Shown in pieces: positions 1,680 to 54,651 of a stretch of 64,000 nucleotides of DNA. How positions within the stretch are numbered: the first letter of the stretch is position 1; each line of letters starts with the position of its first letter. This stretch comes from Acidimicrobiaceae bacterium (lineage in GTDB: Bacteria; Actinomycetota; Acidimicrobiia; Acidimicrobiales; UBA8592): the NCBI GenBank assembly GCA_024641655.1, contig JAHECR010000010.1, positions 1-64,000 of the forward strand, given 5' to 3'. The position numbers were made by a program, and so were the translations under genes. The notes beneath the pieces are model-generated. The model was not told where the DNA came from and did not search any database. It was given only the letters and a program-made list of their open reading frames with translations.

Positions 1680-2296
1680 CCGGGACCTTCATCGCATTCG
1701 AGGGCGGCGACGCCAGCGGTAAATCCACGCAGGCTCAGAGGGTCGCCGACGCGCTCGGGGCCGTGTTCACCCGCGAGCCGGGCGGGACCCCACTCAGCGA
1801 GGCGCTGCGGGCGTTGTTGCTCGATCCCGCGCAGCATGTCGCGCTGCGGACCGAGGCGCTGTTGATGGCCGCGAGCCGGGCCCAGCTCGTGCACGACGTG
1901 ATCGCGCCGACGCTCGCGTCGGGACGCCATGTCGTGACCGACCGGTTCCTGGGTTCGTCGCTCGCTTACCAGGGCTATGGGCGGGGGCTCGACGTCGCTG
2001 CGGTCCGCGGTCTTTCCTTGTTCGCCGTCGAGGGAACCCTTCCGGACCTGACGGTGCTGATCGACGTGCCCGTCTCGCTGGCGATGGGGCGCCTCGGCGA
2101 GGATCTCGACCGCATCGAACGAGAGGAACAGGCATTCCACGAGCGCGTCCGCGCCGGCTATCTCGAGCTCGCCGCTGCCGACCCGGGAGGGTGGGTCGTG
2201 ATCGACGGTACCGGTGACGTCGACACCGTCGCGTCGCGGGTCGATGCTGCGCTCGCTTCCCGGTTGTCAGTGGTCGACGGCATCATCGAATCGTGA
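1676..2296 (+). CDS. tmk: Thymidylate kinase
   Basis: It phosphorylates dTMP to dTDP for DNA synthesis in the cytosol. The 206-residue product has the P-loop EGGDASGKST near residue 9, the DR motif (TDRFLGSSLAYQG, near residue 87) that contacts the nucleotides, and a lid region near residue 140. The length is typical for the family. The reading frame is open far upstream, but the GTG at 1676 begins the canonical N-terminus (TGTFIAFEGG) and overlaps the preceding stop by GTGA. It overlaps holB the same way downstream. Confidence 0.95.
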   Translation: MTGTFIAFEGGDASGKSTQAQRVADALGAVFTREPGGTPLSEALRALLLDPAQHVALRTEALLMAASRAQLVHDVIAPTLASGRHVVTDRFLGSSLAYQGYGRGLDVAAVRGLSLFAVEGTLPDLTVLIDVPVSLAMGRLGEDLDRIEREEQAFHERVRAGYLELAAADPGGWVVIDGTGDVDTVASRVDAALASRLSVVDGIIES

Positions 2297-3354
2297 CCGC
2301 CGACCTCGCCACCGACCCCTTCGCAGGGGTGATCGGGCAGGTCGCCGCCGTCGCGCAGTTGCGGGCTTCGGCGGCGCAGCCGGTGCATGCGTATCTCTTC
2401 CTCGGGCCACACGGATCGGGTCGCCAGGCCGCAGCGAGGGGGTTCGCCGCGCTCCTGCTCAGCGAGGGGCTCGAACCGGTCGTCGCCGAGCGGGCGACAC
2501 GCCTAGCGCTGCGCGGCCAGCATCCCGACCTGGTTCGCATCGAGCCAACGGGCAACCAGTACCGCGAGGAAGAGGTGCGCGAGATCATCATCGAGGCATC
2601 GCGCAGCCCTATCGAGGGCGCTCGGAAGGTCATCGTCGCCGATCGGTTCCACACCGCGAACCCGACGGCCATCGGCAGGTTGCTCAAGACGCTCGAGGAG
2701 CCGCCGCCCTCGACGATCATCGTGTTGTTGAGCGAGGAGGTGCCAGAGGAGCAGATCACCATCGCGTCCCGCTGCGTCACCGTGGCCTTCGGCGCCGTTC
2801 CCCATCCTGCGGTCGTCGAGTGGCTGATCGGGCGGGGTGTGGAACCCGATGCCGCGGAGACGATCGCCGTGGCGTCGTCGGGGGACCTGCGTCGGGCCGC
2901 CGATCTCACCGGCGATCCCGCCGTCGCGCAGCGTCACGCGGCATGGCGAGCGGTACCGGAGCGACTCGACGGATCGGGTGCTGCGGTCGCAATCGCCGTC
3001 GACGAACTGCGAGCGATGATCGACGAGGCGCAGGGTCCCATCGACGAACGCCATGGCGCAGAGCTCGAGGCGTTGGCAGCTCGCGAGGAGCAGCTCGGCA
3101 CCCGCGGGTCGGGCCGGCGGGACCTCGAGGCCGCCCAGAAGCGGGAGGTCCGCCGTCTCCGAGCCGACGAGCTCCGGTTCGGTCTGGGCACGCTGGCGGC
3201 CGTCTATCGCGACGATCTGTTCGCCCACCCCACGCGTCGTGCCCTCGGCGCGATCGGGGCCATCCGCCGGGCGAACGAGGCGCTCGAACGCAACCCCAAC
3301 GAGGCGCTGCTGCTGCAGTCGCTGTTCTTGGCGCTCTCGCCGCGGCCCCGGTGA
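2293..3354 (+). CDS. holB: DNA polymerase III subunit delta'
   Basis: This 353-residue AAA+ protein is a clamp-loader subunit that helps load the beta sliding clamp. The P-loop is degenerate (GPHGSGR, Lys replaced by Arg, near residue 37), as expected for the non-hydrolysing delta' subunit. The SRC sensor motif (ASRC, near residue 158) is kept. The zinc-binding cysteine cluster found in many delta' proteins is missing. The GTG start overlaps the tmk stop by 4 bp. The topA-tmk-holB order supports the call. Confidence 0.9.
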   Translation: MTADLATDPFAGVIGQVAAVAQLRASAAQPVHAYLFLGPHGSGRQAAARGFAALLLSEGLEPVVAERATRLALRGQHPDLVRIEPTGNQYREEEVREIIIEASRSPIEGARKVIVADRFHTANPTAIGRLLKTLEEPPPSTIIVLLSEEVPEEQITIASRCVTVAFGAVPHPAVVEWLIGRGVEPDAAETIAVASSGDLRRAADLTGDPAVAQRHAAWRAVPERLDGSGAAVAIAVDELRAMIDEAQGPIDERHGAELEALAAREEQLGTRGSGRRDLEAAQKREVRRLRADELRFGLGTLAAVYRDDLFAHPTRRALGAIGAIRRANEALERNPNEALLLQSLFLALSPRPR

Positions 3355-3407
3355 GGCGGCCGAAACGAGTCGGCATCTCGTGCGACGGTTGGTACGGTAT
3401 TCGCCTT

Positions 3408-3480
3408 GCCCGAGTAGCTCAGTCGGCAGAGCGATTCACTCGTAATGAATAGGTCGGGAGTTCAATTCTCCCCTCGGGCT
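3408..3480 (+). tRNA. tRNA-Thr (anticodon CGT)
   Basis: This 73-nt cloverleaf has a 7-bp acceptor stem (GCCCGAG/CTCGGGC), a D-arm, and a 5-bp anticodon stem ATTCA/TGAAT around loop CTCGTAA. The T-arm is GGGAG-TTCAATT-CTCCC. The anticodon CGT reads the Thr codon ACG. CCA is not encoded. The 3' portion is repeated in decayed form at 9160-9204, so this gene is probably an integration site. Confidence 0.97.
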
Positions 3481-3481
3481 C

Positions 3482-3808
3482 GCAGCAATCCCGCAGCTCA
3501 GAATAGATACTTGGCCCGTGGTCCGGCATTCGACAGCTAGGGCCTGGTGCCGGATTGGGTGGTTTCCGGGTTCTCCACCGCAAGTCCCTGGCCGAGGGGA
3601 TGAGATTCGGTCAGCGCTCACGCTGTGTGGAAGCCCGAAGGACGAGAAGGCTTCGTGAGCGAACCCGGCTGCCTTTGGGCATCGGCGCGCCGTGGATCGT
3701 CCGGGTTCGCTCTCCGAGGGCATCACCACATCTCTTTGAACCGAACGCGCACTTCGGACGTACTGCTTCGCAGGAAGTGAGTGTGTCCAGCCATGAAGGA
3801 GCCGACGA
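3482..3808 (+). other. Non-coding stretch after the tRNA
   Basis: No reading frame here has a convincing start, ribosome-binding site or recognisable product. It lies just inside the left edge of the putative island, where an integrase is often found, but none is present. The last 20 bases hold the GAAGGAG ribosome-binding site of the next gene. Confidence 0.6.
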
Positions 3809-4735
3809 ATGCGCACGCGGGCGAGCTTGACCACCACAGTCGCGGCGGGAGCGGCCGGAGCGCTCCATGCCGTGGCTCACAGGGTCTTTCCGAACCAGCC
3901 CCGACCCCCAGCATCGGTGGACGACCGGTGGGTGGATGTCTCCGGAGCCCGACTGCGGTATCGGTACACACCCGGCGGGGGCGTGCCCATCGTGTTGATC
4001 CATGGGAGTAACCGATCGCTGGAGTACTGGACCGAGATCATCGATCTGCTCCCGCGAGGGCGTTGCATCGTGGCGCTCGACCTGGTTGGTGCTTCCGGTT
4101 CGGACCGACCTGATGTTGCCTACGATCTACCGTGCCACCACACGTATCTCGTCGGGTTCCTGGACGCCCTCCGCATTGAGCAGGCCGTGCTCGTCGGCCA
4201 CTCATTCGGAGGCTCGCTGGCCGCGTGGACCGCCGCTGAAGCGCCAGAGAGGGTCGCGGCACTGGCGCTGGTCGCAACACCAGGCCTACCCGGATCGCTC
4301 GTTATGCGCTGGCCCAAGAGCCTGTTCATGCGCCCGGGAGTGCTCAATCGTGCCTTGGGGCGACTCGTCCGGACCAGAACTTCCCGGCGCCTCTGCCCGG
4401 ACTGGCTGGCCCGCCAGGATCTTGGCATGGCTGGTTCACTCGGGGCAATTGAGTTCACGAACGCTCTGGACCGGATCCACCAACCGGCACTGATCATGAT
4501 GTCGCCCGGAGACCGGCGGGTGCCTTGGGAGTTCGCCCGCGAGTACCAAGCCCGCCTGCCCGACGCGACCCTCGTCGAGCTCCCCGTTGAAGGTGGCCAC
4601 GACGCCATCCGCGCACATGGTCAACTCGGAGCCCAAGTCCTACGACAGTTCCTTGATCTGGTCGACCTCGTGACGGTCGAGACCGATCTGGTGGGAATCG
4701 AGCCGGTTGAAGCACGCGCCATGCTGCCTACATGA
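3809..4735 (+). CDS. Alpha/beta-fold hydrolase
   Basis: The 308-residue product has all landmarks of the fold: oxyanion HGSN (near residue 66), nucleophile elbow GHSFGG (near 131), an Asp in the SPGDRRVP strand (near 233) and the catalytic His in VEGGHD (near 256). The substrate is unknown; esterase, epoxide hydrolase-like or haloalkane dehalogenase-like roles are all possible. A strong GAAGGAG site lies 7 bp upstream of the ATG. The basic, Ala-rich N-terminus (about 35 residues) could be a weak signal sequence. It is the first gene inside the tRNA-bounded interval. Confidence 0.85.
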   Translation: MRTRASLTTTVAAGAAGALHAVAHRVFPNQPRPPASVDDRWVDVSGARLRYRYTPGGGVPIVLIHGSNRSLEYWTEIIDLLPRGRCIVALDLVGASGSDRPDVAYDLPCHHTYLVGFLDALRIEQAVLVGHSFGGSLAAWTAAEAPERVAALALVATPGLPGSLVMRWPKSLFMRPGVLNRALGRLVRTRTSRRLCPDWLARQDLGMAGSLGAIEFTNALDRIHQPALIMMSPGDRRVPWEFAREYQARLPDATLVELPVEGGHDAIRAHGQLGAQVLRQFLDLVDLVTVETDLVGIEPVEARAMLPT

Positions 4736-4795
4736 GAACAAGTAGCTGTCCAAGGCAACCAAATTGACTTCGCGCCCTTCAACATCCTGAGTCGT

Positions 4796-5323
4796 ATGCC
4801 TGCCGACCCCACACCCGAATCCGCATCCGAGGCCCTCGCCCGTGACCTCTACGAGAATCACGGACCAGCGCTGCAGCGCTGGGCGCGACAACGATTCGCC
4901 GACAACCAGGTCGCGGAAGAGGTCGCCCATGAGGCGATCATGAACGGGTGGCGCAAGCATCACCAGTTCGACCCGAGCCGGGGAAGCGAGCGAGCCTGGA
5001 TGTTCGGCATTCTGCGCAACGTCGCCGCTTCACGCCACCGAGCCGACGCACGACGCCTGCGCGTCGTGCCCACCGAACATGTCGGCGTTGATCCGTCCGA
5101 AGACGGCAGCCTCGAACGCATCGCCCAGCTCTCGCTGGTCGCCGACGCCTTCGCGGCACTCTCAGAAGACCACCGAGCGGTCCTGGTGGCCGCATACTGG
5201 GACGGGCTCACGACCAAGGAAATCGCCGCCGACCTTTCCATCCCCGACGGCACGGTCAAGTCTCGGCTCCATTACGCCCTTCGCATCTTGCGTACGCAGC
5301 TCGAAGAACAGGAGGTCCTCTAG
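4796..5323 (+). CDS. ECF RNA polymerase sigma factor (SigK-like)
   Basis: The 175-residue protein has sigma region 2 (residues about 20-90, with the VAEEVAHEA and RAWMFGILRN segments) and region 4 (about 115-170, with the helix-turn-helix TTKEIAADLSIPDGTVKSR). There is no region 3, so it is an extracytoplasmic-function sigma factor. The stop codon abuts the GTG start of an RskA-type anti-sigma gene, so the pair is very likely one operon. No clear ribosome-binding site precedes the ATG, so translation could be leaderless. The target regulon is unknown. Confidence 0.9.
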   Translation: MPADPTPESASEALARDLYENHGPALQRWARQRFADNQVAEEVAHEAIMNGWRKHHQFDPSRGSERAWMFGILRNVAASRHRADARRLRVVPTEHVGVDPSEDGSLERIAQLSLVADAFAALSEDHRAVLVAAYWDGLTTKEIAADLSIPDGTVKSRLHYALRILRTQLEEQEVL

Positions 5324-5977
5324 GTGGCCGATGATCACGAAACCTATGTCGAATGGGCTGCCGCCTACGCGCTTGGCGCGCTCGACGCCGCCGACCGTGT
5401 CGCCTTTGAGGGCCATCTCGAAGACTGCCCACGATGTGCTGCTGAACTGGTCGAGGTCGCGCCAATCCCAGCGTTGCTCCACCGGCTTGGCGCGCCACCA
5501 GCGACCGAGGTCACCCACGAGCGAACGGCGTCGAAGATCACTTCGGCCGCGCACGATGAACTCTCAGCGATCCGTCGCTCAGCCCGACGATGGCGGGTCA
5601 CTGCGGCAGCGGCCGTCCTGCTCGCGTTGGTTGGAGCCATGACGGCGATCCTCAACGATGGGCCCCGGCCGGCACGGGAGAACGCGCAGGTGGCGACCAT
5701 CGTGTTCGCCGAGGCCACCGACACGATCGTCCAAACGACGGCCAAAGGTTGGGGAACCGAGATCCACATCGAGCTCACGGGTCTCGAACCACGGGCTCGC
5801 TACACCTTGTGGGTCGTCGATGCTTCGGAGAGCTGGTCGACCGCCGCAAGCTGGTCGCCGACCGCGAGCGGCAACGTGCGCCTCACAGGAGCGTCAGCGA
5901 CCGCCACTTCCGATGTCCTGCGAATCGTGGTCACATCCGACGACCCATCCGACATCCTCGTCGAAGCCGCCGTCTGA
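5324..5977 (+). CDS. Anti-sigma factor, RskA family, zinc-binding N-terminus
   Basis: This 217-residue single-pass membrane protein should hold the upstream sigma factor inactive. The N-terminal zinc-binding anti-sigma motif HLEDCPRC (HxxxCxxC) is near residue 31. One transmembrane helix follows near residues 90-108. The external domain (about 120-217, LTGLEPRARYTLWVVD) matches the RskA C-terminal domain. It starts with GTG immediately after the sigma stop. Signal-induced proteolysis of the outer domain is the known release route in this family; the signal is unknown here. Confidence 0.88.
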   Translation: MADDHETYVEWAAAYALGALDAADRVAFEGHLEDCPRCAAELVEVAPIPALLHRLGAPPATEVTHERTASKITSAAHDELSAIRRSARRWRVTAAAAVLLALVGAMTAILNDGPRPARENAQVATIVFAEATDTIVQTTAKGWGTEIHIELTGLEPRARYTLWVVDASESWSTAASWSPTASGNVRLTGASATATSDVLRIVVTSDDPSDILVEAAV

Positions 5978-6378
5978 CCGCACCCGAGCTGGCTCGGGCG
6001 CGCTTGCCATGAGCGCGAGGCCAACGTGGGGTCGATCGCGGCGAGCATTCCTTCGGGTCTGGTCGGCGAGGGTGGCTAGGTCATTCGGCCCATTTCCTCT
6101 CTCCGATCGAACCGGTTCTCGGTTGCGGCCGTAGTGAGTCCCGATGGAAGCCGGCTCCAGTACCTCGGGGCGGACGAGCCGCCGTGCGGTTCGATCCCGA
6201 GTACCTCGGGCTCCCCATGCTGCCCTGTGTGGGGAGGGTGGTCCCACGTGGCGGACGCGGGACCACCCCCGAGGACGTTCATGCCAGGGAGGGGGATCGC
6301 AACGATGTGCCCCGAGTTCCCGGCTTTAGCCGGGTCTGTGCTGGGTCGGTTGGTCCCGATTCGGCACTTGGGTGACGA
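5978..6378. other. Convergent intergenic region between two anti-sigma genes
   Basis: No supportable gene lies here. The plus-strand anti-sigma ends at 5977 and the minus-strand one ends at 6379. The only clear structure is the inverted repeat at 6236-6268. The phrase GTACCTCGGG occurs twice (about 6160 and 6201). Confidence 0.6.
6236..6268. terminator. Candidate bidirectional terminator hairpin
   Basis: A perfect 10-bp inverted repeat, GGGTGGTCCC and GGGACCACCC, is separated by 13 bases. It lies between two convergent genes. There is no U-tract, which is common for actinobacterial terminators, so the function is inferred from position and stem strength. Confidence 0.5.
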
Positions 6379-7020
6379 TCAGAGGGTGCCGTGGCACCAT
6401 TCGTGGCCGGTTTCGTCGACGATGGTGACGGTTCGGATTCGAGTGGGGTCGATTCGGGTGGTCGTCGCCCAACTTTGATCCTCAGCGAGGATGACTTCGC
6501 CGACCACGGCTTCGGTCCCGTCGTCGAGGCCGGCGTGTAGCTCGTAGCGAACTGGGGATGAGTCCGGGTACTCGGGGACCGGCCATCCGGGCAGGCTGAG
6601 GAGGATCCATGCCGGATCCTCGTCGTAGGTCCATACCTGACCGACCTCGCCTCCGGAGTCGGTAACCATCGTCGCCTCCCGTAGCTGCGAGGATGGGCCC
6701 GCGATTGAGCGACCGACAAGGAACGCCACAACGACGAGGACCGCTGCGGCGGAGAGCGCGAAGACCTTCGGGCCGCGCCTCGGGCGACCTGCCGCAATCG
6801 CCGCGGCGACGCCGGCTTCGAACCCGATCGGCGGGGTTGCTTCACGGGTTGCGCCGAGCACGAGCTCGGCTGCAGCGACGAGCCCCTGCACTTCTTCTTG
6901 ACAGGGAGGACACGCGGCGAGATGGTCCAGAACCATGCCGCGTTCGCGTCCACCGATCTCGCCGAGGGCGAGGTCGGTCAGGACGTCGTGACCGGGGCAG
7001 ATCGAGGGCCGGTCACTCAT
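6379..7020 (-). CDS. Zinc-finger anti-sigma factor
   Basis: The 213-residue product carries an N-terminal zinc-binding anti-sigma motif HLAACPPC (near residue 33), one transmembrane helix (about residues 85-105) and a C-terminal extracytoplasmic domain of about 100 residues rich in acidic and aromatic residues. The ATG overlaps the stop of the upstream sigma gene by ATGA, so the two are co-translated. The outer domain resembles RskA only loosely and may sense a different signal. It converges on the other anti-sigma gene of the island. Confidence 0.85.
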   Translation of the reverse strand: MSDRPSICPGHDVLTDLALGEIGGRERGMVLDHLAACPPCQEEVQGLVAAAELVLGATREATPPIGFEAGVAAAIAAGRPRRGPKVFALSAAAVLVVVAFLVGRSIAGPSSQLREATMVTDSGGEVGQVWTYDEDPAWILLSLPGWPVPEYPDSSPVRYELHAGLDDGTEAVVGEVILAEDQSWATTTRIDPTRIRTVTIVDETGHEWCHGTL

Positions 7021-7628
7021 GGGATCACCTCGTCATCTTCGAGCCAGGTTCGCAGTCGCTGTAGCCCGCTGCGGATGCGGGTCTTCGCCGTGCCGAGAGG
7101 AATCCCCTCGATTTCGCTGATCTCACGCGCGGTTCGGCCACCGATGGTGGCCAAAACGATGCATCGCCTTTGAGGTTCGGGGAGCCTGGCGAGCGCGTCC
7201 AGCGCAACTCGTGTCTCGACGCTCAGGGCGGCTGCATCGGAGGGGTCGGTCTGGTTCCCGCCGCGCACGAGCAGGGTCGACGGATCAACCGGGACCGCGG
7301 GCCGAACCCGTTCGAACCGCTGACGATCGATGGCCAGGTTGCGGGTGATCGCCAAGAGCCACGCGCTCACCGAACCACGGCGCGCATCGAAGGTTGCGGC
7401 GTGGCGCCAAGCCCGTACGAAAGCTTCCTGTGCGACCTCCGCGGCGCGGCCATCGTCACCCAGTACCGACAACGCCAGGCCGTACACACGGCGCTGAAAA
7501 CGACGGACGAACTCCGCGGCTGCCTCAGGATCATCGGATCCGAACCCCGCGAGGAGCGCTTCGTCAGGTGCTTCCCACACAACCAGACGATACGGCCAGC
7601 AACCCTTCGCGGATTGGCCAATCCCCAA
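7017..7628 (-). CDS. ECF RNA polymerase sigma factor
   Basis: The protein (up to 203 residues) has sigma region 2 (AEVAQEAFVRAWRHA and AWLLAITRNLAID, about residues 60-115) and region 4 (GRTAREISEIEGIPLGTAKT, about 165-185). An internal GTG at about 7580 gives a product of more usual length and may be the true start. It forms an operon with the anti-sigma gene at 6379-7020 and is divergent from the lipoprotein gene at 7686, which is a candidate target. Confidence 0.88.
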   Translation of the reverse strand: MGIGQSAKGCWPYRLVVWEAPDEALLAGFGSDDPEAAAEFVRRFQRRVYGLALSVLGDDGRAAEVAQEAFVRAWRHAATFDARRGSVSAWLLAITRNLAIDRQRFERVRPAVPVDPSTLLVRGGNQTDPSDAAALSVETRVALDALARLPEPQRRCIVLATIGGRTAREISEIEGIPLGTAKTRIRSGLQRLRTWLEDDEVIP

Positions 7629-7685
7629 AGAACCGACATCCGTAGAAAAGCAACGCGACGACGCCCCCGATCTAGGAGACCACCT

Positions 7686-8201
7686 ATGCGAACGCTTCGC
7701 CTTCTCGGCCTATCGGCTGTGGCGGTGCTCTTCATCGCCGCCTGCGGTCATGACAGCTCGTCATCAGCCTCGACCGCAGACACCCCGGCCACGAGCAGCG
7801 GGTCGACGGGCGCGCCAGCAGCGACCACAACCGGTGCAACGGTCTCGCTGGCCGACAGCGACGAATACGGGCCTCATCTCGTAGGCCCGGACGGTGGCAG
7901 CCTCTACCTGTTCGAGAATGACCAAGGAACCACCACTGCCTGCACCGGCGGCTGTGTCGACAACTGGCCACCACTGCTCGACGCTGAACCGACCGGAGGC
8001 GAAGGCATCGACGCGTCCGTGCTTGGCACCGCGGAGGGCATCGCCGCCAACCAGGTCACCTACAACGGTCACCTCCTCTACTACTTCGCTGGCGACACCC
8101 AACCCGGTGACAGCAACGGTGTCGGCATTCCAGCGTGGTACCTCCTGGACGCCTCGGGAAACGCCATCGAGGACGAAACGGCACCGGGATCCGGCTATTG
8201 A
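7686..8201 (+). CDS. Lipoprotein with two COG4315 secreted repeats
   Basis: The 171-residue product begins with a signal peptide and lipobox (FIAAC, Cys near residue 20), then a Ser/Thr-rich linker, then two copies of the COG4315/PF03640 secreted repeat of unknown function. Typical phrases are SLYLFENDQG with CTGGCVDNWPPL, and the related HLLYYFAGD. The two Cys in the first repeat could pair. The start was chosen because of the AGGAG site at 7674-7678 and the signal peptide, although the frame stays open upstream. Such lipoproteins often sit beside ECF sigma operons; the biochemical role is unknown. Confidence 0.88.
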   Translation: MRTLRLLGLSAVAVLFIAACGHDSSSSASTADTPATSSGSTGAPAATTTGATVSLADSDEYGPHLVGPDGGSLYLFENDQGTTTACTGGCVDNWPPLLDAEPTGGEGIDASVLGTAEGIAANQVTYNGHLLYYFAGDTQPGDSNGVGIPAWYLLDASGNAIEDETAPGSGY

Positions 8202-8521
8202 ACGTCACCTCCCCCGCCACCGTCGGACGCTCCCTGGCGGCCGCTGTGTCAGCCCGTGCCCCGGTGTCCCTCGGGCGGTGGGCATGAATGTGAGCCGCCT
8301 CTCGCCATCGGGTGCGTCTCGAAACTCGATCGGGGCTCGGGCTTGGAGGACGGCGAAGCCAGCAGGGACCGGCAAGTGACCTCCACGGCGGTCCCGACCA
8401 CAGGGCAGCAGTCGGGACCACCGAACCGCTCCGCGCGGGCAAGCACGGAGCGCTGGAGGTACTCGGGTCTAGGCCAGATGTGACCCGTCCGCCCCGAGGT
8501 AGGCAACCCTAACAACTTTGA
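8202..8521. other. Intergenic region, nothing recognised
   Basis: Only short overlapping frames without start signals are present, and I see no RNA or repeat signature. It separates the lipoprotein gene from the convergent PilZ-type gene. Confidence 0.5.
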
Positions 8522-8893
8522 TCAACGTCGGCTAGTCGCCACGGCTGCCAGGAACTCTGCGACCGCGGCCGGCTCGTCGGTGAATCGAACACCGCAACTC
8601 GGTTCCCAGGGTCGGCTGACGTCGATGTGGCGAATCGTCACCGCGACCGCGACAGCGCCGAGCCACAAGCTGGCGGGCACGTCGGCTTCGATCCGGTCGG
8701 GTGGTTCATCGAGCGCGATGCGCGCCCCACCGAGGGAAACCTCACGAAGGACCCCCGACAAGCCAACGACGGTCGTTGCCAGCGTCACGGCGACGGGCGC
8801 GGAAAGCCCAAGCGCAACACGATCGCGTAGACGGCGGTCCCCGGAGCTTTCCTCGGCCACCCCCACCTGTCGGCCCTGCCTCGCCTGAATCAA
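8522..8893 (-). CDS. PilZ-like domain protein
   Basis: This 123-residue protein has an N-terminal arginine cluster (RRLRDR, near residue 20) followed by a beta-rich segment with LREVSLGGARI (near residue 50). These resemble the RxxxR and (D/N)xSxxG motifs by which PilZ domains bind cyclic di-GMP. The first position of the second motif is Glu rather than Asp/Asn, so binding may be weakened. The domain fills the whole protein. It is the last gene before the decayed tRNA copy at 9160-9204. Confidence 0.6.
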   Translation of the reverse strand: MIQARQGRQVGVAEESSGDRRLRDRVALGLSAPVAVTLATTVVGLSGVLREVSLGGARIALDEPPDRIEADVPASLWLGAVAVAVTIRHIDVSRPWEPSCGVRFTDEPAAVAEFLAAVATSRR

Positions 8894-9284
8894 GGCACCT
8901 CACCGCCATCATCGGCCACGACCCGAGCACTGTCCGTGGTGCCGTCGCTAACGTAACGATTCGAGCCGCTCGGTCAATCCCCCTCGCGACGAGTGCTGTG
9001 CCCCTCGGGACCAACCGGCTTCGCTACCCCGTGACGTATCCTCCCGGCCCCGAGGGCCACCGCTCAACACCTCAGCCGAGCACGGACCGGCCGCAGCGTC
9101 AGGTAGCCGCGAGCAGACGCAACGACCGGTCTGCGTAGCCCGTGACCGCACAAGTTCCGCAGTCGCAATGGATCGGTCGGGACCGCGATTCTCCCCTCGG
9201 GCTCCGCGCGTTCCAGGTCCTCGATGCCCCATGTCCCAGGTAGCGCTGTCGTCGCACCGGCGCTACGAATCGGGGTCACGCAGG
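8894..9284. other. Right boundary region of the tRNA-bounded interval
   Basis: No gene is supportable here. The region contains the degenerate tRNA-Thr 3' copy (9160-9204) and then runs into the 3' end of arsJ. Confidence 0.6.
9160..9204 (+). repeat. Degenerate copy of tRNA-Thr 3' portion (candidate attachment site)
   Basis: Aligned without gaps to tRNA-Thr positions 3437-3481, this segment matches at 37 of 45 bases by my hand count, from the anticodon loop to one base past the acceptor stem. The last 17 bases (9188-9204 against 3465-3481) are identical. Most changes fall in the T-loop, where TTCAA is lost, so it cannot be a working tRNA. The pattern suits a recombinase attachment site at a tRNA 3' end, or a decayed tRNA duplicate. 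Confidence 0.75.
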
Positions 9285-10514
9285 TCAGTGGATCGCCGGC
9301 AGCTGCTCTGGCGCCTGGTGGTGCTGCGCCGGGGAGAGCCGCAGGGTGAGCAGCCAGGTGGCGGCCACGAACGCGGCGGAACCCCACAGGGCGGCGTCGA
9401 GGCCTCCCCAGAGGTAGAGCACGCCCGACAGGAGGGTGCCCATGAGGCGACCGGAAGCATTCGCCGAGTAGTAGAAGCCGACATCGAGGCTGACGTCGTC
9501 GCCTTGGCTGTAGGCGAGGATCAGGTATGAGTGCAGCGACGAGTTGAGCGCGAACACGAACCCGAACACGATGAGCCCGCCGACGACGGCCGAGGTGGTG
9601 GCGATGTCGAGCGAGACGAGTGCCGCCATCGCCGTGGAAACGCCCGCGAGCGCCAGCGCCCAGGTGCGGGCCGCGCCGATCTCGGCATCGAGATCACCCC
9701 TGGTCGAGCGCAGCAGGCGAGGGGCGACGGCCTGGACCATCCCGTAGCCGATCACCCAGGCCGCGAGGAATCCGCCGATGCCCTCGAAGGACCAGCCCAG
9801 GGAGTCGTCGAGGAACACCGGCAGGGCCACGACGAACCAGATGTCGCGCGAGGCGAAGAGGAAGAAGCGGGCACTGGCGAGCCGGTTGATCGCGGTCGAC
9901 TTCGACAGGAGCGACCGCAGCGCGGGCTTGCGCTTCGCCTTGCCGATGTCCTCGTTCAACAGTGCCCCGATGGAAACCAGCGCGATGGCGATCATGGCCG
10001 CCATCGACCAGAGCGCGACGCGGTAGCCCAACGAGGACAGCAGGGCGGCACCCAGGAAGAACCCGACACCTTTCAGCGCGTTCTTCGAGCCGGTGAGGAG
10101 GGCGACGAGCTGGAAGAGCGCGTTGTCGCCCGCAACGAACTTGACCGCGCTCTTGGAGCTCATCTTCGTGAGGTCCTTCGCCACGCCCGAGAGGGCCTGG
10201 CACCCCATGACGTACCCCACTGCGGCGACCTCGGGCCACGAGGCGTGCTGGAATGTCAGCGCGACGAGCGCAACGACCTGCAGTCCGAGCCCGACCAACA
10301 GCGTGCGGTTGAGACCCGAGCGGGCCCCGACCCACCCACCCAACAGGTTCGTGACGATCCCCATGAACTCGTAGAGCAGGAACAAGAACGCGATCGAAAC
10401 CGGCGAGTAGCCGAGATCGTGGAAGTGCAGCAGGACGAGCATCCGCAGCGCACCGTCGGTGAGGGTGAAGACCCAGTAGCCGGCGGTGACCAACGCATAG
10501 TTGCGCAGCGCCAC
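9285..10514 (-). CDS. arsJ: Organoarsenical efflux MFS transporter ArsJ
   Basis: ArsJ exports 1-arseno-3-phosphoglycerate, the unstable product GAPDH makes when arsenate replaces phosphate, and so gives arsenate resistance. The 409-residue protein has about 12 hydrophobic segments and an ArsJ-like N-terminus (MALRNYALVTAGYWVFTLTD). It starts with GTG 5 bp after a GAPDH gene in an operon led by an ArsR-ArsC fusion. The pairing with GAPDH is the family's diagnostic context. A generic MFS transporter is the alternative. Confidence 0.88.
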   Translation of the reverse strand: MALRNYALVTAGYWVFTLTDGALRMLVLLHFHDLGYSPVSIAFLFLLYEFMGIVTNLLGGWVGARSGLNRTLLVGLGLQVVALVALTFQHASWPEVAAVGYVMGCQALSGVAKDLTKMSSKSAVKFVAGDNALFQLVALLTGSKNALKGVGFFLGAALLSSLGYRVALWSMAAMIAIALVSIGALLNEDIGKAKRKPALRSLLSKSTAINRLASARFFLFASRDIWFVVALPVFLDDSLGWSFEGIGGFLAAWVIGYGMVQAVAPRLLRSTRGDLDAEIGAARTWALALAGVSTAMAALVSLDIATTSAVVGGLIVFGFVFALNSSLHSYLILAYSQGDDVSLDVGFYYSANASGRLMGTLLSGVLYLWGGLDAALWGSAAFVAATWLLTLRLSPAQHHQAPEQLPAIH

Positions 10515-10519
10515 GACCC

Positions 10520-11593
10520 TCAGCTCCCGAGGGTTCGGGCGATCTGGGCGGCCAGGTCAGCCATTCGGAACGCGTAGCCGTACTCGTTGTCGTACCAGGC
10601 CAGCACTTTCACGAGCCGAGCGTCGGTCACCATGGTGCAAGGCCCATCGACGACGCCCGAACGGGTGTCGTTCACGTAGTCGGCCGACACCAGCGGCCGG
10701 TCCTCGAACCCGAGGATCCCCTTCAGCTCTCCGGCCGCAGCGTCGCGGAACAGGTGGTTGACCTCGTCGACAGTGACGTCACGAGCCACCGTGAAGACGG
10801 CGTCGGTGAGCGACGCGTTCAACAGCGGTACCCGCACCGCCACCCCGTCGAGCCTGCCGGCGAGTTCGGGGTAGATGAGGCTGATCGCGGTAGCGGAGCC
10901 GGTCGAGGTGGGGATGAGCGAGTTCAATGCCGAGCGGGCTCTGCGGAGGTCCTTGTGTGGGGCGTCGACGATGACCTGGGTGTTGGTGACGTCGTGGATG
11001 GTGGTCATCACGCCGCGTTCGATCCCCACACCTTCGTGAATCACCTTGACGATGGGGGCCAGACAGTTGGTGGTGCACGACGCTGCGGTCACGATGTGGT
11101 TCCGGTCTGGGTCATAGAGGTGGTCGTTGCAGCCCATGACGATGTTGAGCACCCCCTCGCTATTGACGGGTGCGGCGACGATCACCTTGCGCACGCCGCC
11201 ATCGAGATAGGGCTGGAGGAGGTCGGCGTTGCGGAACCTTCCGGAGGCCTCCAAGACGATGTCGACGCCGTGCTCGGCCCAGGGCACCGCGCCGGGGGTG
11301 TCATGGGAGCTGTGGGTGATAGTCGACCCGTCGACGATGATCGTGTCGTCTTTGCAGGAGACCCCGGCGTCGAGGCGGCCGTGCACGGTGTCGAACTCCA
11401 ACAGGTGCGCCGACGTCGCAGCGTCGGCATTCGGTTCGTTGACGTGCACGAGCGCGAGCTCCGGGCGGGTGCGCAGTGCCCGCACCACGAGGCGACCGAT
11501 CCGTCCAAAACCGTTGATGCCCACACGAACGCCGAACGGTTCTCGCCGGGGGCGGTCGGCGGGGTTGACGGCGGCCGAGTCGGGGTGGGTCAT
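10520..11593 (-). CDS. gap: Glyceraldehyde-3-phosphate dehydrogenase of the ars operon
   Basis: The 357-residue enzyme has the NAD-binding motif INGFGRIGR (near residue 24) and the active-site ASCTTNC (near residue 170). Its C-terminal half is complete. Beside arsJ and arsRC, the likely job is to make 1-arseno-3-phosphoglycerate from arsenate for export, rather than central glycolysis. The start ATG at 11593 overlaps the stop of the ArsR-ArsC gene by ATGA; the frame is open further upstream but only through that gene. About 18 extra residues precede the Rossmann fold. Confidence 0.92.
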
Positions 11594-12249
11594 GGAGTGC
11601 CTCTTGACTGGAGGGTGGCGATGCGGGCGTCCAGGTCGGCGATCACGGCATCGAATGCGTCCACGGTGGCGGTCTCGACGGGGTCGGGAATCGACCAGTG
11701 CCACCAGCGGTGATCGGGTTTCAACTCTTCGTGTGCACGGTCACACACCGTGACCACCAAGTCGGCGGTGAGCGATGGGTCGAACAGGCGAGGGCTCGCG
11801 CTGGAGATGTCGAGGCCGGCCCGTTGCGCAGCGGTCACCGCCATTGGGTGGACCCGCCCGGCGGGGTCGGTTCCCGCAGATGAGGCAGAGCCTCCGATTC
11901 TGTCCTGCCACAGAGCCGCCGCCAGCTGCGAGCGAGCGGAGTTGTGGGTGCACACGAACAGCACCTTGCCCGCGGGCCTGGCGGCGGCGACACCCAGTTC
12001 GGCAAGCGGTCCCCGCACGAGACGGGCATACCGGCGTCGCCGGTCGCCGGCGGATGCAAACCGCTCGATCAGCCCAGCCTGCTCGAGCACGTCGAGGTGA
12101 TGCGCCATCAGGTTCGTCGGAAGGCCAAGCCCTCGGCCGAGCTCGCTGGGTGAGCGGTCCGACGCCGCGAGCTCTTCAACGATTGCGAGACGGTGTGGCT
12201 CGCCCAATGCGGCGTGCAATCGCGCTCGCCGTTCACGATCCGGGTCCAC
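11590..12249 (-). CDS. ArsR-type regulator fused to low-molecular-weight arsenate reductase/phosphatase
   Basis: This is a 219-residue two-domain protein. Residues 1-90 form an ArsR/SmtB winged helix (recognition region about 38-60). Residues 95-219 form a low-molecular-weight phosphatase/ArsC domain with P-loop CTHNSAR (Cys100 to Arg106) and a second Cys in [10 protein letters not shown]. The regulator domain has no cysteine, so the usual As(III) thiol sensor is absent. The C-terminal domain may reduce arsenate, act as the sensor, or both. The GTG at 12249 is preferred because a promoter and palindrome lie directly upstream and would give an almost leaderless mRNA. It leads the gap-arsJ operon. 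Confidence 0.88.
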
Positions 12250-12257
12250 ACGACCAG

Positions 12258-12284
12258 ATAATAACACAACTTCTGTTGAGTCAA
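12258..12284 (-). promoter_or_regulatory. arsRC promoter with overlapping palindromic operator
   Basis: On the minus strand a TTGACT (-35, 12279-12284) and a TATTAT (-10, 12258-12263) lie 15 bp apart; an alternative -10, TTATCT at 12256-12261, gives 17 bp. The spacer holds the inverted repeat CAAC-TTCT-GTTG (12267-12278), which suits an ArsR operator. Initiation would fall at or next to the GTG start. Confidence 0.65.
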
Positions 12285-12450
12285 ATTCCGTTGCAGTGGT
12301 TTTCGAAGTCGGCGCCCTTCTGGCCTGGTGTTGCGAGCACAGCTGGTGCAGCTTCTCGGCGGAGGGGCCGAGCGTCTCCCGCCCGCAGGTCGTCGAAAAG
12401 AATTCTTCTCCTGATGGAAGGATCGCGGCAGTGCCGTCGTCAAAGGGCAC

Positions 12451-13041
12451 ATGCAAGCCCTTCGACCGACGATATGGGATGGTGCCCAGGTGGTAGATCC
12501 GCCCGAAACCGAGCTGATTGCTCGGGCCCGCGCAGGAGATGCCCGAGCGTTCACCGCGCTCGTGCGCTCCCACGACGATGCCATGCGCGGCCTCGCCTAC
12601 AGCCTGCTCGGCAGCCGGACCGCGATGGACGACGCGCTCCAGGACGCCTACGTGAAGGCGTACCGGGCGATCGGCTCGTTCCGCGGCTCGGCCGCGTTCG
12701 GGACGTGGCTTCATCGCATCGTCCGCAACACCTGCATCGATCACCTACGCCGGAGCAACCGTCACCGTGAGGTGTCGCTCGAGTTGATCGTCTCGAACCC
12801 CGACCCAGCGGCGGGTGCCGATGAGCGTCTCGCCGAACGCAGCCGCGTCGGCGCCGCTCTCGCTGCGCTCTCCGACGAGCAGCGCTGCGTCGTCGTGCTC
12901 GTCGACCGCGACGGCTGTAGCTACGACGACGCCGCGCAGCTGCTCGGCATCACCCCTGGCACCGTCGCCTCCCGGCTCAGCCGAGCCCGTTCCACCCTGC
13001 GCGCCACACTCGGCGCCGACCCCCGAGAGGGCACCCGATGA
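12451..13041 (+). CDS. ECF RNA polymerase sigma factor
   Basis: The product (up to 196 residues) has region 2 (AMDDALQDAYVKAYRAI and FGTWLHRIVRNTCIDHLRR, about residues 50-110) and region 4 (SYDDAAQLLGITPGTVASRL, about 155-175), as in SigE/SigW-type ECF factors. An internal GTG at 12490 could be the real start, because residues before it are not part of the sigma fold. Its stop overlaps the next ATG by ATGA. It is divergent from the ars operon, but nothing links it to arsenic. Confidence 0.88.
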   Translation: MQALRPTIWDGAQVVDPPETELIARARAGDARAFTALVRSHDDAMRGLAYSLLGSRTAMDDALQDAYVKAYRAIGSFRGSAAFGTWLHRIVRNTCIDHLRRSNRHREVSLELIVSNPDPAAGADERLAERSRVGAALAALSDEQRCVVVLVDRDGCSYDDAAQLLGITPGTVASRLSRARSTLRATLGADPREGTR

Positions 13042-14390
13042 CCGACGACCGCGATCGCTTCCTGGCCGACCAGCTCGGCCGCATCACCCCCCCGGCTCAC
13101 CGACCCGACTTCTGGGCCGACCTCGAGGAGAACCTCGCCATGAGCTCCCCGTCGGGCGCTGATCCATCCGACTCCCGCCCATCGCACGCACGCGACGATC
13201 ACGTCATCGACCTGTCCCGGTCCACCGAGGCACGCGCCGCTCGGAGGCTGTGGCAGCGGCCTGGCTTCCTCGCCGTGGCCGCCGCGTTGCTCCTCGTCGT
13301 CGGCGTCGTTGCCGGCGTCACGCTTGCCGGCGGCGGAGACCCCGACGGCACCGCAGCCGGTGATCCGACGGCCACTGCGGTCGAACCGACAGCTGGTCCC
13401 GACGAACCCACGCCCCAACCCACAGAGCCCGCCGGCGAACGAGTCGACCTGACGGACGCACACGAGATCGGGACTTCCGCCGACGGTTCGCTCAGGCTCT
13501 TCGCTGTGCCCACGATGCGTGAGCTCGGCTGTGAGGGCGACGCGAGCTACGAGCTGTACTGGGTGGACACCGACGGCGTCGCAAGGGTGGCCTCGCCGCA
13601 GCTGTTCTTCAACGTGCCCGAGTTCGCGCAGGGACCCGGTGGGCAGGTCACCGTCCTGGCCAGATGCGAGGAGCAGTCGTCGCAGCTCTTCGTCGGCCTC
13701 GAGGATCCCGCCGGGTCTCTCGGTCCGCTCGTGGTGGTCGACCCCGCGGGCTGGGAGAACGCCTACGTTCGAACGGTCACGTGGGGCGACAGCGGTCGGC
13801 TGATCGCCGAGGTCAGCCGGATGGACCAGCTCGCCATCACGCTCTGGACCCTGGTGATCGATCCCGTCGCCGGCGAGGTACTCCTCGCGCAGCCCGCGAC
13901 CGATGCGCAGTGCTCGGCCAGCGACATCACCGACGTGGTCTTTCGGTCCCTCGACGGCACGGACTTCTGGGCCGGGTTGGCCAACGCCATCGAGGCGGCT
14001 GCCCTGAACTGCGACTACGACGCCGTCGCCGCCCTGGCGGCGGACTCCTTCCGCTACAGCTTCGGTGGCGGCAATGACTTCGCCGGCTTCCTCCGCGACG
14101 CCGAGGCCGCGGGTGGCAACCCCATGGCGATGCTGGTGCGGCTGCTCCAGGTCGACCCGGGGACTCCGCCCGAGGACGACACCCGGTTGACCTGGCCGGC
14201 GTTCTTCGCCTGCGAGTCGGCCTGTGGGATCGACACCGAGGAGCTCCTCCGTCTGGGCTACACGCAGGACGACATCACCGCCTTCGAGGACTTCGGTGGC
14301 TACCTCGGGTATCGCATGTCGTTCGTGCAGGTTCCAAACGCCGACGGCACCCCGCTGTTCGAGTGGCAGTACTTCGTAGCCGGCGACTGA
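13038..14390 (+). CDS. Membrane-anchored probable anti-sigma protein
   Basis: This 450-residue protein has a cytoplasmic N-terminus of about 70 residues, one transmembrane helix (about 74-96), a Thr/Pro/Glu-rich linker (about 100-135) and a large extracytoplasmic domain with a few cysteines. The N-terminal phrase RPDFWADLEENL is typical of proteins co-encoded with ECF factors. The HxxxCxxC zinc motif is absent, so any anti-sigma activity would be of the non-ZAS kind. The 4-bp overlap with the sigma gene supports a regulatory partnership. I do not recognise the outer domain. Confidence 0.65.
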   Translation: MTDDRDRFLADQLGRITPPAHRPDFWADLEENLAMSSPSGADPSDSRPSHARDDHVIDLSRSTEARAARRLWQRPGFLAVAAALLLVVGVVAGVTLAGGGDPDGTAAGDPTATAVEPTAGPDEPTPQPTEPAGERVDLTDAHEIGTSADGSLRLFAVPTMRELGCEGDASYELYWVDTDGVARVASPQLFFNVPEFAQGPGGQVTVLARCEEQSSQLFVGLEDPAGSLGPLVVVDPAGWENAYVRTVTWGDSGRLIAEVSRMDQLAITLWTLVIDPVAGEVLLAQPATDAQCSASDITDVVFRSLDGTDFWAGLANAIEAAALNCDYDAVAALAADSFRYSFGGGNDFAGFLRDAEAAGGNPMAMLVRLLQVDPGTPPEDDTRLTWPAFFACESACGIDTEELLRLGYTQDDITAFEDFGGYLGYRMSFVQVPNADGTPLFEWQYFVAGD

Positions 14391-16831: not shown

Positions 16832-17980
16832 ATGGGGAACACCTTTGCCGGTGCCGCAGTCGTCGGGATCGGTCGCACCGAGTTCACCCGTCGTTCCGGT
16901 CGGAGCACGGGGGCCCTGACGGTGGAAGCGGTGCGCGATGCGGTCGCCGACGCCGGCCTCTCGCTCGCCGACGTCGACGGCATCATCAACTTCAACACCG
17001 GCGACAGCGTCTCCTCGCAGGAGGTGGCCCACGCCATCGGCAACGACGACATCGGCTGGGCCGTCGACATCAAAGGTGGCGGCAACGTGGTCGCGCAGGT
17101 CGTGTCGACTGCGGCGGCAGCGATCATCACCGGTCAATGCGAGGTCGCGGTCGTCTACCGCACGCTCGGGTCGGGAACGCGCTACGGGCGGGTCAACGGC
17201 ACCGTCGAGGTCGGTGGCCAGCTCCAGTTCGGCGCACCCCACGGGTACATGGTGCCCCCACAGTGGTTTGCCATGTGGGCTCGGCGGCACCAGCACGTCT
17301 ACGGGTCCGGGCCTGAGGATCTCGGAGCGATCGCGGTCACCCAACGCAACCACGCGTTGGCCAACCCCCATGCCATTGCCCGCACACCCATGACGCTCGA
17401 CGACTACCTGAGCTCGCGCATGGTGTTCGACCCGTTCCGCGTCCCGGACTGCTGCTACGAGGTCGACGGGTCGGTGGCGCTCGTGCTCACGACGTCCGAG
17501 CGCGCCAAGGACCTGCCCCACCGTCCCATCCACCTCCTCGGCCAGGGCGACTCGTTCGGCTACGGCGGTAATGTCGACGAGTTCGACGACATGACCTGCA
17601 TGTATTCCCGTGATGCCGCTCGACGTCTCTGGAAGAACACCGGATTGAAGGCGCAGGACATGGACGTCGCGTTGATGTACGACTGCTTCACCTACACCGT
17701 GATGGCCACGTTCGAAGATTTCGGGTTCTGCGGCAAAGGAGAAGTCGGGGACTTCTTCCGTGAGGGGCGGGCGACCTACGGCGGTGACGTGGTCGTCAAT
17801 CCCCACGGCGGGCTGCTGTCGGAGGGGTACCTGCACGGACTCAACCATCACTACGAAGCCGTGCTCCAGCTGCGGGGCGAGGCCGGCAACCGCCAGGTGC
17901 CCGATGCCGAGCTGGCGCTGGTCACCGCAGGAGCCGGACCGTACGGGAGCTCGCTCGTCTACGGGACCGAAGCATCATGA
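16832..17980 (+). CDS. Thiolase-family lipid-transfer/aldolase-like protein (Ltp2/SCP-x type)
   Basis: This 382-residue thiolase-superfamily protein begins at the ATG at 16832, after a GGGGG ribosome-binding site. At the position of the usual nucleophilic cysteine it has glycines (IKGGGNVV, near residue 88). The C-terminal phrases YDCFTYTVMATFEDFGFC and NPHGGLLSEGYLHG are typical of the Ltp2-like subgroup. Ltp2 proteins act as retro-aldolases on steroid side-chain CoA thioesters with a DUF35 partner. Such a DUF35 gene overlaps by 4 bp here. The substrate is unproven; steroid or other acyl-CoA catabolism is inferred. Confidence 0.85.
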   Translation: MGNTFAGAAVVGIGRTEFTRRSGRSTGALTVEAVRDAVADAGLSLADVDGIINFNTGDSVSSQEVAHAIGNDDIGWAVDIKGGGNVVAQVVSTAAAAIITGQCEVAVVYRTLGSGTRYGRVNGTVEVGGQLQFGAPHGYMVPPQWFAMWARRHQHVYGSGPEDLGAIAVTQRNHALANPHAIARTPMTLDDYLSSRMVFDPFRVPDCCYEVDGSVALVLTTSERAKDLPHRPIHLLGQGDSFGYGGNVDEFDDMTCMYSRDAARRLWKNTGLKAQDMDVALMYDCFTYTVMATFEDFGFCGKGEVGDFFREGRATYGGDVVVNPHGGLLSEGYLHGLNHHYEAVLQLRGEAGNRQVPDAELALVTAGAGPYGSSLVYGTEAS

Positions 17981-53997: not shown

Positions 53998-54651
53998 ATG
54001 GCAGACCAGGCCGACTTCGCCGAGCAGGCCATGCGCTACATGGACCAGCTCTACTCGCACGCGCTGCGGATGACGCGCAATGCCTCCGACGCCGAGGACC
54101 TGGTCCAGGAGACCTATCTCAAGGCCTACCGCGGCTTCGGCGGGTTCCAGGAGGGCACCAACCTGCGCGCCTGGTTGTTCCGGATCCTGACGAACAGCTA
54201 CATCAACAGCTATCGCAAGAAGCAGCGCCGGCCCGACGAGAGCGATCTCGGCGACGTCGAGGACATGTTCCTGTATCGCCGCCTCGGCGGGGCAGAGACG
54301 GCCAGCCTGAGTCGCAGCGCCGAAGACGAGCTGTTCGAGCACCTCACCGAGGCGGAGGTGAAGGAGGCGATCGAGGCGCTCCCCGAGCAGTACCGCGATG
54401 CGGTGCTGCTCGCCGATGTCGACGGCTTCGCGTACAAGGAGATCGCCGAGATCCTCGACGTCCCCATCGGCACGGTCATGTCCCGCCTGCACCGGGGAAG
54501 AAAGCGTCTCCAGCAAGAGTTGTACGAGTTCGGTCGCCGGCGGGGTCTCGTGCCCGACGCCGAGGCCGATCCATCCGAGGAGTCGGTGGGCGCCGATTCG
54601 GCCACCGGCGCAGCGGAACCGATCGCAGCTGGCGTAGGAGAACCCTCATGA
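53998..54651 (+). CDS. SigR/SigH-like ECF sigma factor
   Basis: The 217-residue protein has region 2 ([17 protein letters not shown] and [20 protein letters not shown], about residues 37-75) and region 4 ([21 protein letters not shown], about 145-165). It matches the oxidative/thiol-stress sigma group with a small downstream anti-sigma. The C-terminal 30 residues are acidic and Ala-rich. The next gene overlaps by ATGA. Confidence 0.9.

Follow-up and report, generated by a model that had tools for sequence, protein, structure and literature searches.

The window, as we call the whole stretch of 64,000 nucleotides that was analysed, carries an intact tRNA-Thr(CGT) gene beside holB, its neighbour in most of the relatives examined. 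The tRNA gene is followed by a 5.7-kb block of seven called genes, by a second, partial copy of its own 3' part, and by a further 44.7 kb that opens with an arsenic-type cluster and ends at an ECF sigma gene (Table 1). For gene calling, a simple script based on GC3 took the place of a trained gene finder.

An earlier note on this DNA had listed two ECF systems, a secreted-repeat lipoprotein, a hydrolase and a PilZ protein in the block, and the Pfam assignments agree with it. The note was also right that the block holds no integrase gene: the five PF00589 matches of the genome all lie on other contigs, and searches of the block with integrase queries found no remnant. The one tblastn match (E 0.056) takes in the tRNA sequence itself and was not counted as a remnant. 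No relaxase, transfer or replication genes, by which an AICE, an ICE or a mobilisable element is recognised, were found in 3482-9159, whose seven called genes have other Pfam assignments.

Table 1. Coordinates of the features discussed in the text. Locations are positions in the window unless a contig is named; G000 is the genome to which the window belongs.
Feature	Location	Strand	Basis or remark
holB (DNA polymerase III delta' subunit), conserved left flank	2293-3354	+	Pfam DNA_pol3_delta2
tRNA-Thr(CGT), intact; 3' part is the proposed proximal att	3408-3481	+	ARAGORN; Rfam tRNA 70.8 bits
Proximal copy of 45-bp direct repeat	3437-3481	+	Covers the tRNA from the anticodon stem to its 3' end
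Bracketed 5.7-kb block, proposed cargo of a decayed element	3482-9159		GC3; absence as a unit in relatives
Alpha/beta hydrolase	3809-4735	+	Pfam Abhydrolase_1, 8e-25
ECF sigma factor 1	4796-5323	+	Pfam Sigma70_r2, Sigma70_r4
Anti-sigma factor 1 (zf-HC2)	5324-5977	+	Pfam
Structured repeat, divergent copy	6160-6278	+	81.3 bits with model R1, itself built with that copy
Anti-sigma factor 2 (zf-HC2)	6379-7020	-	Pfam, barely over cut-off
ECF sigma factor 2	7017-7628	-	Pfam; 51-59% identical relatives elsewhere in the order
Lipoprotein_15 secreted-repeat lipoprotein	7686-8201	+	Pfam 3.8e-19
Structured repeat, directly 3' of the PilZ gene	8376-8502	-	Folding z -5.0; compensatory changes
PilZ-domain protein	8522-8893	-	Pfam 24.7 bits, cut-off 22.5 (weak, above cut-off)
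Displaced, decayed 3' fragment of tRNA-Thr, proposed distal att	9160-9204	+	Same orientation as the tRNA gene, on its 3' side
Outer 44.7 kb, which relatives lack between tRNA-Thr and the ECF gene	9205-53997		Mostly host-like GC3
MFS gene, arsenic-type cluster	9285-10514		Start of the outer 44.7 kb
GAPDH, arsenic-type cluster	10520-11704
ArsR-LMWP (ArsR fused to a low-molecular-weight phosphatase domain), arsenic-type cluster	11590-12744
ECF sigma gene, conserved right flank	53998-54651	+	Pfam; directly after tRNA-Thr in relatives
Structured repeat	G000 C76:700-828	+
Structured repeat	G000 C7:1113-1241	-
Structured repeat	G000 C16:8326-8425	-
3' part of tRNA-Met	L040 (G000:C76) 1128-1173
Parent tRNA-Met	L078 (G000:C89) 17784-17858
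Integrase-bearing locus in G035	L053 (G035:C128) 5709-13590
Integrase locus in G028	L052 (G028:C117) 1144-2153

The direct repeat at tRNA-Thr(CGT)

Realignment reproduced the match that had been counted by hand, with 37 of 45 bases shared between the two copies and the last 17 identical. The repeat starts in the window at CACTCGTAATG, and the similarity of the distal copy to tRNA-Thr ends exactly at the 3' end of the tRNA. Within 3000-12800 no longer direct repeat than this pair was found, and the 3' pattern of the tRNA, with up to three mismatches, occurs at just these two places in the 3.9-Mb assembly. From base composition, the expected number of 37/45 matches is 6e-11 in the window and about 4e-9 in the genome, while the best match among 200 Markov sequences of 64 kb each reached 30/45.

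Composition of the block and the locus in relatives

The GC3 of all seven genes of the block lies between 0.71 and 0.77, against a mean of 0.85 for the 41 genes outside it on both sides (Mann-Whitney p 9e-6). Their codon usage is as far from the rest as the most extreme of 1,000 random gene sets, whereas in plain GC the contrast is hardly visible. The comparison with the flanks proposed in the earlier note sets the block apart from both of them in GC3.

As a unit, the block is present in none of the 396 other genomes of the order; its matches there are single genes, nearly all of them to the two ECF sigma genes. In relatives, tRNA-Thr is followed instead by a homologue of the ECF sigma gene found at 53998 in the window. 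The gap between the two is about 60-90 bp in all 12 readable genomes of a sister genus, which belongs to the same family, and about 30-90 bp when one further genome (G032) is included, and where the loci of relatives are longer, the genes beyond the homologue are collinear with the window at 54-64 kb. Three further genomes have the homologue within 4 kb of tRNA-Thr. In G001, the closest of the large genomes in the family, at least 14 kb of different DNA comes after tRNA-Thr, without that ECF gene there. Since the homologue adjoins tRNA-Thr in relatives, the window holds about 50.5 kb of extra DNA from the 3' end of the tRNA, of which the bracketed 5.7 kb is only the proximal 11%. The earlier note had drawn a possible island at 3437-9204: its bracket stands, but not as the full extent, because the extra DNA extends as far as about 53.99 kb, with the fragment in its interior. 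Likewise, of the comparison with relatives that the note had proposed, the absence of the block as a unit held, while the contiguous flank in relatives proved to be the ECF gene and not position 9205. No relative has tRNA-Thr joined directly to 9205, and therefore an empty site of the 5.7-kb unit was not seen.

This arrangement could also be read as one island covering the whole of 3482-53997 (50.5 kb) at tRNA-Thr, with 9160-9204 as an internal relic, for example one of several tandem att sites. All of the 50.5 kb is indeed extra with respect to relatives, and tandem tRNA-borne islands are known (PMC4383910). However, GC3 rises from about 0.74 before the fragment to about 0.85 after it, the region near 53.9 kb shows no match to tRNA-Thr above background that could be an outer att, and the outer genes have homologues scattered in relatives and include no integrase, so that we regard a single island of this size as unlikely. 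Based on its composition, on the loci of relatives and on the host-like outer DNA without an outer att, the 5.7-kb block is a separate unit of foreign composition, placed where a larger variable region begins on the tRNA side. A tRNA scar can thus mark only one layer of such a region.

The assembly is a draft in 121 contigs with an estimated contamination of 5.7%, which would leave room for an assembly or binning chimera. Such an artefact is highly improbable here, since the junction coincides with the tRNA att scar, the PilZ gene and the structured repeat have copies of 80-90% identity on other contigs of the same assembly, and tRNA-Thr would be expected to have both holB, here on the left, and the ECF block, here on the right, as neighbours.

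Integration at tRNA-Thr

The same tRNA gene carries integrase-bearing elements in other genomes. In G035, a stretch of 7.8 kb that encodes two tyrosine recombinases separates tRNA-Thr(CGT) from a perfect repeat of about 65 bp, which starts at TCACTCGTAATG, nearly the same anticodon-stem base as the repeat of the window, and extends past the end of the tRNA. An integrase adjoining tRNA-Thr in G028 is 44% identical to one of those of G035, and G047 has another, different integrase at a distance of about 130 bp from tRNA-Thr. With three of 19 genomes, integrase-bearing sites are far above what we estimate by chance from integrase numbers. The G035 and G028 integrases, which come from two families of the order, form a tRNA-Thr-specific integrase family. 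Across the order, which looks actinobacterial from its gene content, the tRNA-Thr(CGT) gene next to holB is a hotspot of integration.

Some details of these loci can be added. The open frames of the G035 and G028 integrases each start inside the tRNA gene. A second "tRNA-Thr" called by ARAGORN in G035 was rejected, as the alignment shows a 3' fragment and not a gene. At another locus, L055 (G021:C1), tRNA-Thr at 9344-9419(-) is directly followed by two tandem copies of its 3' half with a period of about 65 bp.

Taking together the repeat, the GC3 contrast, the absence of the block as a unit from 396 other genomes, the integrases at this tRNA gene in G035, G028 and G047, the ancestral adjacency of tRNA-Thr and the ECF gene in relatives, and a second scar at tRNA-Met in the same genome beside a related PilZ-repeat module, we consider it highly probable that 3482-9204 is the remnant of a tyrosine-recombinase element that integrated into tRNA-Thr(CGT) and has since lost its integrase, the outer 44.7 kb being separate. 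Such elements are well established to integrate into tRNA genes, where attP restores the tRNA while a fragment of the gene is displaced, and of the two common classes of tRNA integration site one is centred on the anticodon (PMC4383910). In the window, the element would have entered by site-specific recombination with an attP carrying the 3' part of the tRNA gene, and for this reason the tRNA would have stayed whole at 3408-3481 while its 3' fragment was displaced to 9160-9204. With the later loss of the integrase and any transfer genes, a distal att in decay would have been left behind together with the cargo, namely two ECF sigma/anti-sigma pairs, the lipoprotein, the hydrolase and the PilZ protein. 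The outer 44.7 kb between the remnant and the ancestral neighbour at 53998 would stem from separate, probably older events. Points against this reading are the lack of an integrase or integrase remnant in the block, the empty site of the 5.7-kb unit not having been seen in relatives, and the distal copy being 18% diverged while the composition of the block has not been ameliorated; part of this divergence may stem from the attP.

The earlier note had offered an old tRNA duplication as the alternative, which here would be a partial duplication of the gene without any mobile element. The missing integrase and the 18% divergence of the copy would suit it. Nevertheless, only the 3' part from the anticodon stem was copied, identity stops at the end of the tRNA, the orientation and the side are those predicted by integration, the DNA between the copies differs in composition from both flanks, and the same tRNA receives integrase-bearing elements in other genomes. 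A duplication is therefore very improbable, and the note's main proposal, an island inserted at tRNA-Thr, is borne out by the repeat geometry, the composition, the absence as a unit and the elements found elsewhere in this tRNA gene. Its suggestion that the element could be mobilisable found no support, as the block has neither a relaxase nor an integrase gene. In addition, the best of the integrases of this genome that were compared with those of G035 and G028 is Xer-like, with 27-28% identity, and those compared are not close relatives of the tRNA-Thr integrases. The remnant at 3482-9204 is probably immobile.

Compared with known systems, an island inserted at tRNA-Thr is of an ordinary kind, tRNA-targeted insertion being already known. 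Islander islands (PMC4383910) are bounded on one side by an intact tRNA gene and on the other by a 3' fragment displaced from that gene, with both in one orientation and on one replicon. The fragment in the window likewise lies downstream in the same orientation, reaches the end of the tRNA, and falls outside conserved coding domains, between the PilZ and MFS genes; the 5.7 kb is within the Islander range of 2-200 kb, and the block is foreign in the sense that its composition is unlike both flanks and that it is absent from relatives. Islander, however, also requires an integrase gene inside, and since the block has none we class it as a remnant and not as an Islander-type, putatively active island. 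The 7.8-kb element of G035 shares the tRNA gene and the position of the repeat start with the window but differs in its two tyrosine recombinases and its perfect repeats, and none of its remaining genes was identified with a gene of the window. In actinobacteria, tRNA-Thr is a known target of pSE211-type AICEs (PMC3218068), a Streptomyces ICE (PMC9513070) and the mycobacteriophage Island3 (PMC3029335), a likeness drawn at the level of tRNA-Thr; unlike the block, all three carry an integrase together with transfer, replication or phage genes.

A structured repeat and a second tRNA scar

A structured repeat of about 128 nt occurs in five copies in the genome of the window, two of them inside the block. 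A search of 297 other genomes of the order found no copy, sequence searches of plasmids, phages and viral contigs likewise found none, and the two copies in the window have no Rfam match. Folding z-scores of three copies range from -3.5 to -5.0. In the alignment of the five sequences, which was fitted to the structure and so favours the figure, 97.5% of the cells pair, against 38-46% in slid controls, and 12 pairs change on both sides. By inspection, four of the five copies lie 3' of a co-oriented gene. As first guesses, the repeat could belong to a 3'-UTR, resemble a terminator, or serve mobile elements in cis; it is a possible new family of structured RNA. A reading as an integron attC was dropped on inspection, as its ends are unlike complementary attC core sites.

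One of the copies leads to a second tRNA scar. Contig C76 carries a PilZ gene and a structured repeat that are 80% identical to those of the window (75% for the PilZ protein), and the 3' part of a tRNA-Met lies at a distance of about 300 bp from them. The parent tRNA-Met is on another contig, C89, and differs from the fragment at a single base of 46, and the two stay identical for about 16 bp beyond the end of the tRNA; the genes after the parent tRNA have mostly lower GC3. C76 and C89 probably bound one tRNA-linked island that is split over two contigs. That the tRNA-Thr and tRNA-Met islands belong to one integrase-less family, defined by PilZ and the 128-nt repeat and moved in trans by integrases that other elements supply, and that the repeat has a function in the element as RNA or as DNA, is a speculative extension to which we give little credence.

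Two of the five PF00589 matches of the same genome are integrase genes directly 3' of tRNA-Lys(CTT), at L080 (G000:C20) 4295-5953, and of tRNA-Pro(TGG), at L084 (G000:C47) 9803-10579, and these loci are two further tRNA-linked elements.
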